Position numbers and translations under genes: made by a program. Under the pieces are notes generated by a model. It was not told the DNA's origin. It was given only the letters and a program-made list of their open reading frames with translations, and searched no databases. Of a stretch of DNA of 51,183 nucleotides, positions 176 to 42,192 are shown one piece after another; positions within the stretch are counted from its first letter, which is position 1; each line of letters opens with the position of its first letter. The stretch comes from Candidatus Eiseniibacteriota bacterium (GTDB taxonomy: Bacteria > Eisenbacteria > RBG-16-71-46 > JACRLI01), in NCBI GenBank assembly GCA_025351485.1, contig JANXVU010000044.1:1-51183 (forward strand), in the 5' to 3' direction.

Positions 176-295
176 AGGAGACGCTAATTGATTCCATGCC
201 GCACGCAGCTTCAACTGAAACACGTTCACGTTTTCGCGGTGCCGAGACGCCTGCGTATGGACAACTGCCCCGTACATCTACCAGGAGAAAGCAAC

Positions 296-1063
296 ATGCG
301 TAAGACCGCTATCATGCTTCTCGCGTTTGGCCTCGCGGCCACCGCGGCTGCTCCCGCCTTCGCGGTGAGCCTGATGACCGAGACCTTTACCTATGCGAAT
401 GGAAACCTGGCGCTTCCGGTTTCGGTTTCCGGCGGCAACTGGGCGAACCACAGCGGCGTGGGCACCGACATCCAGGTGACCGGCGCGGTGGCCGTGGGCA
501 ACATGAACAACGCTCCGGACGACAACCGCTCGTTCACCGCCCAGGACAGCCAGAGCGTGGTCTACGCATGCTTCCAGTGCATGATCCCCACGATGGCGGC
601 GGCGCCGCGCAACAACTACTTCGCGCACCTCAAGGACGGCGGCACGTCCAACTTCGTCACCCGCGTGTTTGTCGCTCCGGTGGCGAGCACCAGCTCGTTC
701 ACGTTCGGCCTGTCCCACTTCTCGGGCACCCAGTCCGACCAGTGGGCGACCCCGCTCAACTACGGCCAGTGGTACACGGTCGTGATCAAGTATGACGGGC
801 CCAGCAAGACCTCCAAGTTGTGGGTGGATCCGGTGAACGAGTCCAGCACCAGCATCACCACTACCTACGTAAGCGGACCGGGCCGCAGCATCATCTCCTC
901 GTTCGCGCTTCGCGAGAGCACCGGCGGCACCGGCGGCAGCCCCTTTATTTACAACGTCGACAACATCAGCGTCGCGACCACCTTCGGTGACCTGGGTTGC
1001 GGCAGCCAGGGAACGCCGGCTCGCGGCACCACCTGGGGCAAGCTGAAGAACATCTACCGTTAG
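296..1063 (+). CDS. Secreted protein with C-terminal WGxLKxxYR tag
   Basis: The protein has 255 residues. It starts at ATG 296, chosen because AGGAGAAA precedes it and a clear Sec signal peptide follows (MRKTAIMLLAFGLAATAAAP, cleavage near AFA-VS); the open frame upstream has no signal features. The mature part is rich in Ser, Thr, Gly and Asn, with beta-strand-like segments and the sequence DNISVATTFGDLGCG near the end, reminiscent of concanavalin/laminin-G-like jelly rolls, though I do not recognise a named family. It ends exactly in TTWGKLKNIYR. The same motif closes or nearly closes five other secreted proteins here (21076, 22004, 40750, 41276, 41776), which share no obvious similarity with this one otherwise. 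A strong terminator follows at 1086, so the gene is probably monocistronic. The location is inferred to be the periplasm, outer surface or medium. Confidence 0.8.
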   Translation: MRKTAIMLLAFGLAATAAAPAFAVSLMTETFTYANGNLALPVSVSGGNWANHSGVGTDIQVTGAVAVGNMNNAPDDNRSFTAQDSQSVVYACFQCMIPTMAAAPRNNYFAHLKDGGTSNFVTRVFVAPVASTSSFTFGLSHFSGTQSDQWATPLNYGQWYTVVIKYDGPSKTSKLWVDPVNESSTSITTTYVSGPGRSIISSFALRESTGGTGGSPFIYNVDNISVATTFGDLGCGSQGTPARGTTWGKLKNIYR

Positions 1064-20835: not shown

Positions 20836-21075
20836 TTAGTATGTTATTAGTCCAGTGGTGCTTCCACGCTCATCGGCCAACCAACCCCTCTGGTCAGAGC
20901 GTGCCCGGCATCCAGGGTCGAGAGCCCATTCAAAATCTCCGATTCCCCGCTTGGTCTAGAGTTCTTGATGTTTCGTTGAAAGGCTACCTTGTGGGGGGTG
21001 GCCCAGTGTGCGGACATACGTCATAACATTGTCCGGCCCCGACATCTGCAGCTTAATTTACTCACAGGAGGCATC

Positions 21076-21771
21076 ATGAAGCGTTTCATTACCGGGATGT
21101 TGATCGCCGCGCTGGCCGTTACGGTTGCGAGCGTGGCGATGGCGCAGGAAGAGGCGCACTACGAGGGTTACTTCTACAACAGCGCGAATCCCCCGGTGAA
21201 CCCGAATCCTCTCCCGGGTATGGGTGGCCGTGGCCTCGTGACGGCGATTTACGCCCCGATGATCTCGAACTTCGTCGCCAACGAGTACACCTGGGTGATT
21301 GATGGTCTGCTGCCGACCGGAAACACGGTGGTGGGCACGACGACCTACACGAGCTACGACGTCAGCACGTGGCCCGCGACCATGACGATGTACGAAGACC
21401 CGGCGAACAACGCGCGCCCGACCTTCTACTTCTGCCCGTCCGACATCCACCCGCTTGACCCGCGCTACAGCGACGGGCCCATCTACCTGAAGGGTCACTT
21501 CGTCTCCTTCAGTTCGCAGTACGACGTCGCGACCCAGCAGGGCACGTTCACCGGCCAGATGAACTGGGACGGTGGCTCGGCGAACGGTTTCGGCAAGATC
21601 GCGCCCGGCCGTCGCGGCGCCTACACGTTCGGTGGCACGACCTCTCAGTTCTTCGCCTGCATTCCGTTCGCGGCCGGCTACGACCAGGCGATGACGGGGC
21701 GGATCTTCCAGCTGACCACCGGTGCCAAGCACACCACGTGGGGCCAGCTGCGCAACCTGTACTCCAAGTAG
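21076..21771 (+). CDS. Secreted protein, paralogue A, with WGxLRxxY tag
   Basis: The 231-residue protein begins at ATG 21076 (CAGGAGG ribosome binding site) with a signal peptide ending AMA-QE. The mature domain is beta-rich and carries distinctive blocks shared with the next gene: GRGLVTAIYAPMISNFVANE, VVGTTTY, YED, ARPTFYFCPSDI, GPIYLKGH, GTFTGQMNWDGGS, RRGAYTFGGTT and MTGRIFQLTT. Two cysteines (in FCPSDI and ACIP) are conserved between the copies and could form a disulfide. It ends TTWGQLRNLYSK, the recurrent C-terminal motif. I do not recognise the fold or function. A strong promoter and long leader suggest high or regulated expression. Confidence 0.82.
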   Translation: MKRFITGMLIAALAVTVASVAMAQEEAHYEGYFYNSANPPVNPNPLPGMGGRGLVTAIYAPMISNFVANEYTWVIDGLLPTGNTVVGTTTYTSYDVSTWPATMTMYEDPANNARPTFYFCPSDIHPLDPRYSDGPIYLKGHFVSFSSQYDVATQQGTFTGQMNWDGGSANGFGKIAPGRRGAYTFGGTTSQFFACIPFAAGYDQAMTGRIFQLTTGAKHTTWGQLRNLYSK

Positions 21772-21850
21772 CGGCAAGGTTTCACGGCGCTAGCGCGCCG
21801 CAGTTCGAAGCCTCCAGGGAGTCCAGTTGAGAGCAAAAGGTCAATCAGGG

Positions 21851-21896
21851 GGGATGGTTCCGGAGTTAAAACCGGGACCATCCCGCACCTGTTTTT
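21851..21896 (+). terminator. Terminator between the two paralogues
   Basis: A 13-bp stem (21851-21863 with 21872-21884, one T-G wobble) is followed seven bases later by TTTTT, so the second paralogue probably has its own promoter. Confidence 0.7.
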
Positions 21897-22003
21897 CAGT
21901 CCTTCTGGCATGGATTCACCGGCAGCATGGCTTCGCCAGCATGGAAATTTCTCGAGCGCCTGGCTCGACATCGTTCAGGGATCCCTCCAAAGGAGGCGCT
22001 ACA

Positions 22004-22669
22004 GTGCGCAAGTTGGTAATCGCGATTGGAATCTTCACCGCCCTGGCCACGGCCGGCACGGCGTTTGCCCAGGAAGAGGTGCACTTCGAGGGCTACTGGG
22101 TGACCAACCCCGTGGGCGGCCCGGGAACTACGCTCGATGGCCGCGGCCTGGTGACTGCCCTGTACCCGCCCCTGGTTTCGAACTTTGTTGCCAACGAGTA
22201 CACTTGGACGACCTCCGGTTTGTCCGTGGCCGGATCCAGCGTGGTCGGCACGACCACCTACCAGACGTTCAACCTCGCGGGCGCCCTGTTCACCATTTAT
22301 GAGGACGCCACGCAGGATGCCCGGCCGACCTTTTACCTTTGCCCGAGCGACATTATCGGAGCGGACGGTCGTTACCAGAATGGCCCGATCTACCTCCAGG
22401 GACACTACACGGCGTTCAGCGCGACCTTCGACGTCGGAACCACGACCGGCACGTTCAACGCCCAGGTGAACTGGGATTCGGGTTCCCACCTGACCGATTT
22501 CACGCCGGCCAGGCGCGGGGCTGCCAAGTTCGGCGGCACTACCACGCAGAATTCCACCGGCGCCTGTATCCCGCCGGGTTACCAGATCGGCATGACCGGA
22601 CGCATCTTCCAGGTCACGACGGCCTCCAACGAAACCAGCTGGGGCACGTTGAAGAAGGTCTACCGCTAG
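22004..22669 (+). CDS. Secreted protein, paralogue B, with WGxLKxxYR tag
   Basis: The 221-residue protein starts at GTG 22004, seven bases after AGGAGG, with a signal peptide ending AFA-QE. It aligns with the preceding gene over its full length: GRGLVTALYPPLVSNFVANE, SVVGTTTY, YED, ARPTFYLCPSDI, GPIYLQGH, GTFNAQVNWDSGS, RRGAAKFGGTT and MTGRIFQVTT. The identical start of the mature chain (QEE-H-EGY) is kept as well. Divergence is mainly in loops, so this is an older tandem duplication. It ends exactly in TSWGTLKKVYR. The function is unknown. Confidence 0.82.
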   Translation: MRKLVIAIGIFTALATAGTAFAQEEVHFEGYWVTNPVGGPGTTLDGRGLVTALYPPLVSNFVANEYTWTTSGLSVAGSSVVGTTTYQTFNLAGALFTIYEDATQDARPTFYLCPSDIIGADGRYQNGPIYLQGHYTAFSATFDVGTTTGTFNAQVNWDSGSHLTDFTPARRGAAKFGGTTTQNSTGACIPPGYQIGMTGRIFQVTTASNETSWGTLKKVYR

Positions 22670-38509: not shown

Positions 38510-40648
38510 ATGGGATTCCACTCCGGTCGGGAACGCCGTTCGGTGTTCCATGTGTTCCTGCTGTTGGTCTGCGGAGCCCTCGCGCAGGCGCTGCCTGCCC
38601 ATGCCAGCACTCTTCGAAGCCTCAGCCCCGACCAACTCGCCCTTTCGGCGGACCAGATTGCGGTGGGGGTGGTCATCCGGCTCATGCCCCACCCGCTCGA
38701 CGGGATCGATGTGACCGACGTCACCCTGCGCGTGACCGACATCTGGAAGGGCCAGCCCCGGCCGGAGGTCACGTTCAGCGTGATCGGTTCCCTCCAGGGC
38801 GGGCTGCTGCTGCCGGCCGATGGCGAAGCCGCGTTCCGGCTGGGGGAGGAGGTCGTGGTGTTCCTGGAACGGAACTCCTCCTCGGGACGCACCTGGGTGC
38901 TGGGTGGCGAACAGGGGTCCCTGGGCGTGGACGGGGGACGCCTGCAAACCACCCGGCTCGGGATGGGCGAATTGGCTCTCCGGGTGAGGAGCCGGCTGGC
39001 CGGATCCCCGCAGCCCCTGCAACTTCGCGCCACCGTGGAAGCGGAAGACGGTCCCCGCGTCACCGGCATCAGCCCGAAGTCGGCCGGCAGCGCCGCGGAC
39101 GCCCGCCTGCCGGTCACCATCCGCGGCGACCATTTTGGATCATCGCCCGGACGGGTGCGGTTTCCCGACTGGTTCCGCCGCCTGGACGGATACGTGCAGG
39201 ACTGGAGCGACACCCTGATCCACGCCATCGCGCCCCGGCCCGACACCACCCTGCAGATCGAAGTCACCTCCGGTCCGCTGGAGGTGCAGGACTCGCACGG
39301 CAGATCCAGCCTGGATCGCGACGGATGCCCCAACTACAGCTGCCGGCCTCCAAGCTACCTCGACATCGTCTACAACTACCCCCGCTTCCGATGGAAGGGC
39401 GCGGGCGAGGTGACCTGGCGATGCAACTCGCGGAACCTGCCCGATGGTTGCGGGGAGCAGGCGATCGGACGCGCCTTCGAAACCTGGAACGAGGTTCCGG
39501 GCTCCAGCATGTTTTTCCGGAACGGGGGGGAGACCGAAGCCATCCCGGGAAAGCGCGACGGGATCAACGCGGTGGGCTCCCTGAGCCCGTGGCCTTTCAG
39601 CCACGCGTGGATCGCGGCCACGCTTCCGTGGGCCCGTTACGATCCGGACTCGGCCCTCCTCGGCGAGTGCGACACCGGCCTCAACACCGATGACTTCAGC
39701 TTCCGCTGCGACGGCTCGGGTCTTTCCAGCCAGCCGGATCTTCAAACCATCATGCTGCACGAGTCCGGGCACTGGCTGAGGCTGCGCCACGTGAACAACA
39801 GCGACGAGATCATGCAGGCATCTTCCCTGCTCGGGCGGGCGCACCACGAACTGGGCCCCGGCGACGTCGCCGGGATCTGCCACGTCTACCCCGGATTCGG
39901 AAAGGCCCGCGCCCTCAACACCGATGCGGTGGTGTGCCCCGCCGGGGACGCCGACAGCGCCCTGATCGAGGTCATCCTGACCGACCGGGACGGTTTGCCG
40001 GCCGCGGGAGTTTCGGCGGGCGAAATCTGGGCGGATCTCTCCGGCCTGGGGCTGCCGGCAGGGGCCCGGGCCCGGGCGCCTGCCCTGGGTCCGACCGATG
40101 CCCAGGGCCGCACCAGGATCGCCGTCAGCCGCCTTTCGGGGCCGCTGGCGATGCGGGAACTTCCGATCGAAGCCCGTGGAATGGTCCTGCCCCGCCGGGC
40201 GGTTTTCGAAGCCCTGACGCTGGATCTTTCGGGAGACGGGGTGGTCGGCCCCGAGGACCTGGAACTGGCCCGGTCGCTCGACCACCAGATCCACCAGGCC
40301 GGGGGGGACCTGGACACGATGGTGTTCCATCGGCACATGGGCCACAGCTACGCCGGGGCCCGGCCGCCGGGTGCCAGAACGGCGATCTATGTCTCTCCAA
40401 ATCCTTTTTCTACAACGGTTTCCATAGTATTCTCCTTGTCCCGCGGGGGGCCGGCCGAGGTGGAGGTGCTGGACGTCACCGGAGCCCGGATACGGCGCCT
40501 GTGGGGTGGCAACCTGGGCGCGGGATCGCATCGCCTGGAGTGGGACGGAACCACCGATTCGGGCCGCCCGGCAGCCTCCGGGATCTACATGGTCCGGGCC
40601 CGCCTGGACGGTTTTGAGACCGTCCGGAAGGTGCTGCGGGTGCGCTAG
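38510..40648 (+). CDS. Secreted matrixin-type metalloprotease with IPT domain and T9SS/FlgD-like C-terminal sorting domain
   Basis: The 712-residue protein has a signal peptide (FHVFLLLVCGALAQALPAHA). Then come a beta domain (35-165), an IPT/TIG domain (about 184-265, beginning PRVTGISPKSAG) and a catalytic region (about 290-470). That region contains the metzincin zinc site His417-Glu418-x2-His421-x5-His427 (HESGHWLRLRH) and Met435 as candidate Met-turn. After a linker there is a dockerin-like segment (LSGDGVVGPEDLELARSLD). The last 85 residues are a FlgD/T9SS type A domain: YVSPNPFSTTVSIVFSL, VEVLDVTGARIRRLWGG, GSHRLEWDGTTDSGRPAASG and YMVRARLDG. Proteins with this tail are moved across the outer membrane by the type IX system in FCB bacteria. 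Confidence 0.88.
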   Translation: MGFHSGRERRSVFHVFLLLVCGALAQALPAHASTLRSLSPDQLALSADQIAVGVVIRLMPHPLDGIDVTDVTLRVTDIWKGQPRPEVTFSVIGSLQGGLLLPADGEAAFRLGEEVVVFLERNSSSGRTWVLGGEQGSLGVDGGRLQTTRLGMGELALRVRSRLAGSPQPLQLRATVEAEDGPRVTGISPKSAGSAADARLPVTIRGDHFGSSPGRVRFPDWFRRLDGYVQDWSDTLIHAIAPRPDTTLQIEVTSGPLEVQDSHGRSSLDRDGCPNYSCRPPSYLDIVYNYPRFRWKGAGEVTWRCNSRNLPDGCGEQAIGRAFETWNEVPGSSMFFRNGGETEAIPGKRDGINAVGSLSPWPFSHAWIAATLPWARYDPDSALLGECDTGLNTDDFSFRCDGSGLSSQPDLQTIMLHESGHWLRLRHVNNSDEIMQASSLLGRAHHELGPGDVAGICHVYPGFGKARALNTDAVVCPAGDADSALIEVILTDRDGLPAAGVSAGEIWADLSGLGLPAGARARAPALGPTDAQGRTRIAVSRLSGPLAMRELPIEARGMVLPRRAVFEALTLDLSGDGVVGPEDLELARSLDHQIHQAGGDLDTMVFHRHMGHSYAGARPPGARTAIYVSPNPFSTTVSIVFSLSRGGPAEVEVLDVTGARIRRLWGGNLGAGSHRLEWDGTTDSGRPAASGIYMVRARLDGFETVRKVLRVR

Positions 40649-40749
40649 CCGGTTGCCTTGAGACCCCAAGGAGTGGTATTCTGATAACTCGGCAATTTCC
40701 CCAGGGTTTTCATTCGGAGTGGACCCCGAATGGTGTGATAAGGATTCGC

Positions 40750-41226
40750 ATGAGGTTCGCTTTGGGTTGCTCGCTCGCGCTCGCCACCCTGTTCATGGGC
40801 GTGGCTCCCGCGAACGCAACAACGATTCGTAATATCAACATTTCGGGGTTCGCATTTTCACCCCAGTTCGACACCGTGATCGTGCACGATTCGGTGGTCT
40901 GGACCAATCAGGACGCCGCGACCCACGAGCCCAAGAGTGGCAGCGTGAACGGGAACTTCACGGATCCGTGGACCTCTGCAGCCCTGGGAAGTGGCGGGGT
41001 GTTCAGCCGGAAGTTTGACAAGCTCGGGATCTTCAACTACGTGTGCGCCTTCCACGGCAGCATGACCGGCAAGGTGGTGGTGATCACCTCCTTTGCCGCG
41101 GCGCCCGAGACCTGGAGCCGCCTGAAGAGGCAGTATCGGTCCAAGCCCGCGGGGCGGAGTGAGGCGGGAAAGTCCGGGGCGCTCGGCGCACGGTCCACGA
41201 ACGGAGTCGCAAGCCAGCGAAGATGA
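40750..41226 (+). CDS. Secreted cupredoxin with complete type 1 copper site
   Basis: The 158-residue protein starts at ATG 40750 (TAAGGA six bases upstream) with a signal peptide ending ANA-TT. The plastocyanin-like domain has His59 (THEP) and the ligand loop Cys99-x2-His102-x2-Met105 (YVCAFHGSM), so the blue-copper site is complete. After the domain comes ETWSRLKRQYR (residues 120-130), the recurrent tag, here followed by a 28-residue basic, Ser/Gly-rich tail ending ASQRR. It is the first of three tandem cupredoxins and probably carries electrons or copper in the cell envelope. Confidence 0.87.
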   Translation: MRFALGCSLALATLFMGVAPANATTIRNINISGFAFSPQFDTVIVHDSVVWTNQDAATHEPKSGSVNGNFTDPWTSAALGSGGVFSRKFDKLGIFNYVCAFHGSMTGKVVVITSFAAAPETWSRLKRQYRSKPAGRSEAGKSGALGARSTNGVASQRR

Positions 41227-41275
41227 CTATCCGCGCGGTTCGGGCGGAATCTCACAAGCGGAACCGGAGGCATCC

Positions 41276-41680
41276 ATGAAGCTACGGACAACGATTGCCG
41301 GCGCGCTCCTCGCTCTGGGCTGGGCCACGGGCGCCTTTGCGTTCACCTCCAACGTGTCCATCGGGGACAATTTCTTCACCCCCCGGAACGACACGATCCT
41401 GGTGGGCGATGCGGTGAGATGGACCAACAACGGATTCAACAACCACACGTCCAACGGCACGGGTTTCGAGGTGTGGGCCTCGGGAACGCTTGGGTCGGGG
41501 GGGACGTTTACCAGGTTCTTCAATAACGTGGGCCAGTTCACCTATCGCGACAACCTCAGCTCGGCGACCGGAACGATCTACGTGATCGGCGCGACTTCCA
41601 CGTCGAACACCTCCTGGGGAAAACTCAAGCAGGTGTATCGGAAGGGAAACCGCGTCACGAACGCGAAACCCCGGCGCTGA
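41276..41680 (+). CDS. Cupredoxin-fold secreted protein that has lost its copper site
   Basis: The 134-residue protein starts at ATG 41276 behind CCGGAGG, with a signal peptide ending AFA-FT. It aligns with the next gene (NDTILVGDAVRWTNN; NDTISVGDQITWSND) and with the previous one. His57 is kept (NNHTS), but the ligand loop reads TYRDNLSSATGT: Arg91 stands where Cys is expected and neither the second His nor the Met is present. It therefore cannot bind type 1 copper in the normal way and may have a structural role. The tag TSWGKLKQVYR (residues 112-122) is kept, followed by a 12-residue basic tail. Confidence 0.85.
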   Translation: MKLRTTIAGALLALGWATGAFAFTSNVSIGDNFFTPRNDTILVGDAVRWTNNGFNNHTSNGTGFEVWASGTLGSGGTFTRFFNNVGQFTYRDNLSSATGTIYVIGATSTSNTSWGKLKQVYRKGNRVTNAKPRR

Positions 41681-41775
41681 TCCGCCGCAGGCGACTCGCC
41701 GGTCCGGCTCACGCCGGGCCGGCCGCAGCATGTCCAACAACCATTTCCCCCTGAATCCCTACTCCCGAGGCAGTC

Positions 41776-42192
41776 ATGAAAAAAGCGATACTCCTCCTCT
41801 TGGCCGTGGGCGCCCTGCTGCCGGCCACTGAGGCGTTGGCAGTGACCAAGATCGTGTCGATCAATGATTTCTATTTCCTGCCGCGGAACGACACCATTTC
41901 CGTCGGCGACCAGATCACCTGGAGCAACGACAGCGACCTGAGCACGCACTCCACCAGCCGGGCGGCGGTTCCCGGCAGCTGGGACTCGGGCCCGCTGGGG
42001 CCGACCGGAACGTACACGCTGCAGTTCAACACGGCGGGCACGTTTCCCTACAAGTGCAACTTTCACCCGACCCTGATGACCGGGACCATCGTGGTGAAGC
42101 AGGGGGCAACCCCGGCCAAGCCCAGCACCTGGGGCGGGCTGCGAAAGACGTATCGCAAGGCCGCGCCGGTCAACAAGGCGCAGCGCAAGTAG
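41776..42192 (+). CDS. Secreted cupredoxin with complete type 1 copper site
   Basis: The 138-residue protein starts at ATG 41776 behind CGAGG, with a signal peptide ending ALA-VT. Copper ligands are His58 (STHST), Cys94, His97 and Met101 (YKCNFHPTLM), the plastocyanin/pseudoazurin-like set. The tag STWGGLRKTYR (residues 117-127) is followed by an 11-residue basic tail ending AQRK. A bidirectional terminator follows. The three neighbouring cupredoxin genes are 49 and 95 bases apart and probably form one transcript. Confidence 0.88.
   Translation: MKKAILLLLAVGALLPATEALAVTKIVSINDFYFLPRNDTISVGDQITWSNDSDLSTHSTSRAAVPGSWDSGPLGPTGTYTLQFNTAGTFPYKCNFHPTLMTGTIVVKQGATPAKPSTWGGLRKTYRKAAPVNKAQRK

Follow-up and report, generated by a model that had tools for sequence, protein, structure and literature searches.

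C-terminal tags on exported proteins have repeatedly led to the machines that handle them: the sorting domain of the type IX secretion system (T9SS) to PorU, GlyGly-CTERM to rhombosortase and MYXO-CTERM to myxosortase. The last two tags and PEP-CTERM share an architecture consisting of a motif, a membrane helix and a basic end. The T9SS type A domain (TIGR04183, PF18962), which goes together with PorU and PorV, is a beta-sandwich of 70–80 residues at the C-terminus of Sec-exported proteins, with tens of copies per genome, and short versions of 40–51 residues still work in Prevotella intermedia (PMC11969387). Here we describe a different C-terminal tag, WGxLKxxYR, starting from a contig of 51,183 nucleotides of a Candidatus Eiseniibacteriota bacterium (JANXVU010000044.1, assembly GCA_025351485.1). 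In this stretch, which we call the window at its full length, a protease with a T9SS-type domain is directly followed by three small cupredoxin-family proteins that bear the tag or close forms of it.

The tag has features in common with both groups of known signals. Like the T9SS type A domain it is C-terminal, marks Sec-exported proteins in tens per genome, and is found on related passenger domains in the same genomes. Like PEP-CTERM, GlyGly-CTERM and MYXO-CTERM, which are associated with exosortase, rhombosortase and myxosortase, it is short, lineage-restricted and attached to many unrelated exported proteins. Unlike the T9SS domain, however, it comprises only some 17 residues, and no motif common to the two was seen in the excerpts of the T9SS literature consulted; unlike the CTERM signals, it has no membrane helix before the C-terminus within the last 30 positions. 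C-terminal tags as such are known; none of the models searched covers this one, which has neither the T9SS fold nor the CTERM helix. In the open-access literature (PubMed Central only) we recognised no description of the tag and no paper linking Eisenbacteria with type IX secretion.

A conserved tag on unrelated exported proteins

Among 153 non-redundant tails, the consensus is [TV]-P-[TAV]-x-x-[ST]-[TS]-W-G-x-[LI]-K-[AS]-[LI]-Y-R at the very C-terminus, giving a tag of roughly 17 residues. Conservation extends to positions that were required by none of our search patterns (−17 to −11, −4 and −3), with 1.9 bits of information at Pro −15, 1.6 at Thr/Val −16, 1.4 at Leu/Ile −3 and 1.1 at Ala/Ser −4. 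Synonymous codons vary within the tag, indicating that the constraint acts on the protein level, and the core persists among passengers no more than about 30–55% identical to each other, most of which were found through the tag itself. The column composition of positions −30 to −1 in the same tails reveals no hydrophobic block before or in the tag. The WGxLKxxYR tag is real and not a chance pattern, and it lies at the end of the protein, or within a few residues of it, in nearly all carriers seen.

A DNA pattern for the motif gave 20 matches in the genome of the window vs. none in the reversed control; four of the 20 (L001, L007, L010 and L016) are chance matches with no proper gene end. In the window and the stretches L293–L314 taken together, some form of the tag terminates 22 open frames, each 60 residues or longer. 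Across a phylum-level set of 47 genomes, a strict DNA pattern that included the stop codon matched 209 times, against two matches in the reversed control, and was present in 32 genomes. The 15 genomes without a strict match were covered by a relaxed pattern permitting Ile and other changes (124 matches vs. 2 in the control; 16 genomes), which matched 13 of them, and in each of the 13 one or more matches were seen to be gene ends. Counting the Ile forms, we accept 43 of the 47 genomes as tagged, among which gene ends were not inspected in two (G036 and G037). G012 and G017 are not counted because their single matches (L028 and L031) lie in frames that are 18 and 23 residues long, and G038 and G043 have no tag even when Ile is allowed at position 4.

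A scan of named genomes yielded at least 113 loci, mostly from Candidatus Eisenbacteria among the matches listed, which also include Krumholzibacteriia, Latescibacterota, Zixibacteriota, Poribacteria and Kerfeldbacteria. The open frame ends at the tag in 118 of 120 listed matches, three of the 118 being complete frames of 22 residues or fewer and one being cut by the locus edge.

The proteins that carry the tag are mostly predicted to be exported, and they are diverse. There are 168 distinct tagged frames, among them 146 complete ones with a length of 100 residues or more. A Sec signal is predicted for 131 of these 146, compared to 92 of the 318 frames that served as controls in the same loci, by a rule that, like the gene models and the T9SS-domain hidden Markov model (HMM) used here, is home-made. 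The passengers are unrelated: the largest Pfam family, NHL propellers, accounts for 8 of 99 tagged proteins, while lamin-tail, beta-helix, phosphoesterase, cohesin and CHRD domains are each found in one to four. The original prediction, made for the window only, held that the tag-bearing proteins lack the T9SS domain, and this extends to the larger set scanned: none of the 99 proteins matches TIGR04183 at E 0.01, and none of the 71 frames matched by the home-made HMM is tagged. Finally, there is no existing tag model among the 23 NCBIfam families matched by the 99 proteins (E 0.01); those named for PEP-CTERM (ScyF, PepA) are, as we read them, passenger models.

Two C-terminal signals in the window and its genome

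The first gene of the locus (38510–40648, + strand) encodes P0001, a secreted matrixin-like metzincin protease of 712 residues. Residues 406–460 match Peptidase_M10 (PF00413, E 6.7e-7) and include the sequence HESGHWLRLRH. The consensus of the matrixin active site is HExxHxxGxxH; P0001 resembles the matrixin (M10) metzincins in having an HExxHxxxxxH site and differs from them in having Arg in place of the usual Gly. Its C-terminus, residues 628–709 (40391–40636, + strand), is a T9SS type A-like sorting domain, which narrowly passes the cut-off of TIGR04183 (23.6 vs. 23 bits) and contains a FlgD_ig match over that model's cut-off (PF13860, residues 649–697, E 1.8e-9), whereas the Pfam sorting domain PF18962 stays below its cut-off (14.1 vs. 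27 bits).

Three small exported cupredoxin-family genes follow the P0001 gene within 90 bases on the + strand, so that a metzincin protease with a T9SS/FlgD-like domain directly precedes tagged cupredoxins, as had been described from the sequence. P0002 (40735–41226, + strand) matches the plastocyanin-type Pfam model weakly (PF00127, E 6e-4; 20.6 bits, just below the cut-off of 21.2) and an amicyanin-like model at E 8e-7. P0004 (41776–42192, + strand) matches PF00127 at E 1.1e-5, over the cut-off, and has a structure model with beta-strands. The type 1 copper ligands His, Cys, His and Met are present in their usual order in both proteins, as read from the alignment, and this ligand set is the one of plastocyanin/amicyanin-type cupredoxins. 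P0003 (41276–41680, + strand) has lost the ligands and, at E 1, matches nothing in Pfam; it aligns with P0004 at 43% identity.

The motif common to the three proteins is W[GS]xL[KR]xxYR: WSRLKRQYR in P0002 (41113–41139), WGKLKQVYR in P0003 (41615–41641) and WGGLRKTYR in P0004 (42130–42156), all on the + strand. The earlier description of three cupredoxins with WGxLKxxYR has to be adjusted accordingly, since the letter-for-letter form is found only in P0003, the one protein without copper ligands. Another difference from plastocyanin/amicyanin-type proteins is that all three continue past the tag in Lys/Arg-rich tails, of 28 residues in P0002 (41140–41223), 12 in P0003 (41642–41677) and 11 in P0004 (42157–42189). 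The similarity of the tails suggests that they are probably older than the duplication of the window cupredoxins. In the model of P0004 (mean predicted local distance difference test score 71, four sequences), the tag forms part of a low-confidence helix (residues 119–129) apart from the strands.

The genome of the window has T9SS core genes, sought here as SprA, PorU and the PorV/PorQ family, with porK–porN outside the search. SprA scores 500.7 bits (cut-off 200) and PorU 438.7 bits (cut-off 420), and directly beside PorU lies a PorV/PorQ-family protein of 180.6 bits (cut-off 90) that is below the cut-off of the stricter PorV model. The T9SS domain model has 81 matches at E 0.001 in this genome; in 14 control genomes it has matches in two, over the cut-off in one. 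A lack of T9SS core genes had been named as what would speak against the original prediction, and their presence removes that objection for this genome. P0001 can be regarded as T9SS type A cargo both by its sorting domain (TIGR04183) and by the core genes that accompany it. Moreover, each of the 29 genomes of the class that were searched has matches to the SprA and PorU models, over the cut-off in 24 and 21, respectively, compared to 0 and 2 of 14 control genomes, none of them over the cut-off. That one cell has two distinct C-terminal signal classes is well supported.

A possible separate reader or a minimal T9SS signal

An important question is whether the two signals are read by the same machinery. 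Relatives of one passenger can carry either of them. Some cupredoxin relatives end exactly in the tag (L222 and L246 of genome G006, which have no Lys/Arg tail) or continue for one or two residues past it (L227 of G027 and L223 of G016), so that the window proteins are not alone in having a non-terminal tag; in others a T9SS-type domain is present instead (L228 and L238 by Pfam, L240 by eye). Similarly, eight frames of NHL relatives end in the tag and one in a single-substitution variant, while three have a T9SS-type domain (one by rule, two by eye) and seven further frames are cut off. This passenger swapping is the strongest link of the tag to the T9SS.

We lean slightly towards the WGxLKxxYR motif being the core of a separate sorting signal, for a second class of Sec-exported proteins with a reader of its own rather than the T9SS. 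A tagged protein would leave by Sec, after which an envelope protein would recognise its tail, made up of a linker, a short cationic helix and a Tyr-Arg end. This reader would move the passenger to, or fix it at, an outside destination like that of T9SS-domain cargo, as suggested by the relatives of one passenger that carry either signal. It would most likely be a dedicated receptor or processing enzyme and not the binding site for T9SS domains, because 9–17 residues cannot form the T9SS beta-sandwich. The window cupredoxins with their longer tails would be a derived form, whose recognition may or may not have been retained. A more far-reaching and more tentative proposal, which we consider plausible without calling it probable, is a novel sorting system that reads TP-x-W-G-x-L-K-x-x-Y-R, parallel to the T9SS in Candidatus Eisenbacteria, Krumholzibacteriia and Latescibacterota and independent of the T9SS translocon in an order of the Candidate Phyla Radiation (CPR) with orphan sorting domains.

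Several observations weigh against a separate reader. Many cupredoxin relatives and nine complete NHL-relative frames carry neither signal, and P0002, P0003 and P0004 do not themselves end in the tag. A T9SS-domain gene lies next to a tagged gene somewhat more often than next to a control gene (25/310 vs. 54/1278, Fisher p 0.008, with crude gene models). Among 13 genomes tested for both signals, ten have both and three, all CPR, have only the T9SS domain; such joint occurrence favours shared machinery. Clustering of 988 open reading frames, from which some loci had been left out as duplicates or chance matches, showed, among the 45 largest clusters, no untagged partner family that recurs next to tagged genes, generic families apart. 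Likewise, no receptor or enzyme for the tag was found, PorU being the only co-occurring enzyme searched for. In addition, a few lipoproteins appear to be tagged (L039, L136), which is a poor fit to release from the outer membrane. A loose rule flags 20 of the 146 tagged frames as lipoproteins and a stricter lipobox eight, of which only few are to be trusted, most of the 20 looking like ordinary signal peptides on reading. The claim of two routes that read different C-termini is thus supported as regards the two signal classes; two routes would be one reading, but swapping, the modest adjacency and the co-occurrence also fit one machinery that reads both signals.

The main alternative, which we consider possible but rather unlikely, is that the tag is a minimal T9SS signal, with export via SprA and collection by a PorV-family protein that reads the short tail. 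The SprA and PorU matches throughout the class, SprA in tagged Krumholzibacteriia and Latescibacterota genomes, the PorV/PorQ-family protein beside PorU, the passenger swaps and the adjacency of the two kinds of genes would all be explained in this way, and the functional 40–51-residue domains of P. intermedia show that a T9SS signal can be short (PMC11969387). However, the tag has no sorting-domain motifs and is far shorter than the T9SS signals described in the consulted parts of the literature (PMC11969387, PMC10202324). T9SS-bearing relatives that seem tagless under the strict pattern (family f11, G004 and G015) do have a tag once Ile is allowed at position 4, G038 and G043 excepted, so that a "T9SS without tag" state is not demonstrable for the phylum as a group.

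Another argument against a minimal T9SS signal comes from a Kerfeldbacteria-type order of the CPR, represented by ten genomes (G047–G051 and G069–G073; loci L168–L175). Seven of the ten have the tag, in one to three copies each, and all have T9SS-domain matches (two to seven each, at least one over the cut-off in every genome). SprA was not found in any of the five genomes tested, in a run that matched 13 of 22 genomes, including tagged Krumholzibacteriia and Latescibacterota. The peptidase part of PorU was not matched in any of the ten, nine having matches to the C-terminal part only and one no match. In two of these genomes the tag loci have neighbouring genes in common, up to 67% identical, which makes contamination less likely. 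The tag and T9SS-type sorting domains thus occur together in CPR bacteria in which, where tested, no T9SS translocon was detected. The retention of both signals could mean either that they are on transferred cargo, or that they are readable by something else.

Two other explanations dispense with a reader. The tag could act on its own, as a cationic amphipathic helix by which exported proteins are kept at the face of a membrane with no dedicated receptor, which we regard as improbable. The Trp, Leu, Lys, Tyr and Arg residues do fall at helix spacing, and the tag is a separate helix, at low confidence, in the P0004 model; on the other hand, the linker Pro and Thr/Val and a near-invariant Gly −8 are conserved at fixed spacing (the Gly in part by selection, since Ser was permitted there only in some searches), and a plain anchor should tolerate more variation. 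That the tag is merely an old tail carried along with copied genes, with no present function, is very hard to believe: some carriers are indeed related (the NHL group, tandem arrays such as L138) and some tagged CPR proteins cluster with Eisenbacteria families, but no Pfam family exceeds 8 of the 99 tagged proteins, the core persists in diverged passengers, albeit ones mostly found through the tag, and conservation reaches outside the search pattern.

The sharp consensus, the number of carriers in the genome of the window (about 20 or more) and the natural swaps with a known signal make the receptor question directly testable, and the window cupredoxins, possibly unrecognised, would be a natural test case. 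More broadly, many proteins of unassigned function in uncultured phyla may, judging by the tag, end up outside the cell or on its surface.

Further carriers and rejected matches

Three other genes in the window belong to the same class of carriers. An exported protein at 188–1063 (+ strand), with no Pfam match, ends exactly in TTWGKLKNIYR, and another without a Pfam match, at 21827–22669 (+ strand), ends exactly in TSWGTLKKVYR. The latter has a relative at 20989–21771 (+ strand), again with no Pfam match, that ends in the variant tag TTWGQLRNLYSK. The two genes between 20989 and 22669 are neighbours in one similarity cluster, one with a full tag and one with a YSK variant.

Some matches of the named-genome scan were set aside. 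L057, L072, L128 and L161 are chance matches with no proper gene. Tags in metagenome-assembled genomes labelled Rokubacteria, Verrucomicrobia, Actinobacteria and Chloroflexi (L075, L177, L178–L181, L067 and L165) are possibly misbinned and were not used as evidence. SprA was not found in the genomes labelled Rokubacteria, Verrucomicrobia and Actinobacteria (G053, G066 and G052), and the Rokubacteria- and Verrucomicrobia-labelled contigs, with T9SS-type domain genes next door, look misbinned.

Variation among carriers takes several forms. Three Poribacteria loci (L108, L141 and L153) have a shorter relative of the tag, e.g. ATTWGKLKQAW or ATTWGKLKQAR, beside full-tag proteins. The tag, or something close to it, also terminates longer lamin-tail-like proteins whose cupredoxin-like match is weak (27–31% identity; L231, L234, L235, L243 and L250). 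Finally, the Eisenbacteria contig L138 has seven tagged frames in 8 kb, several of them related.

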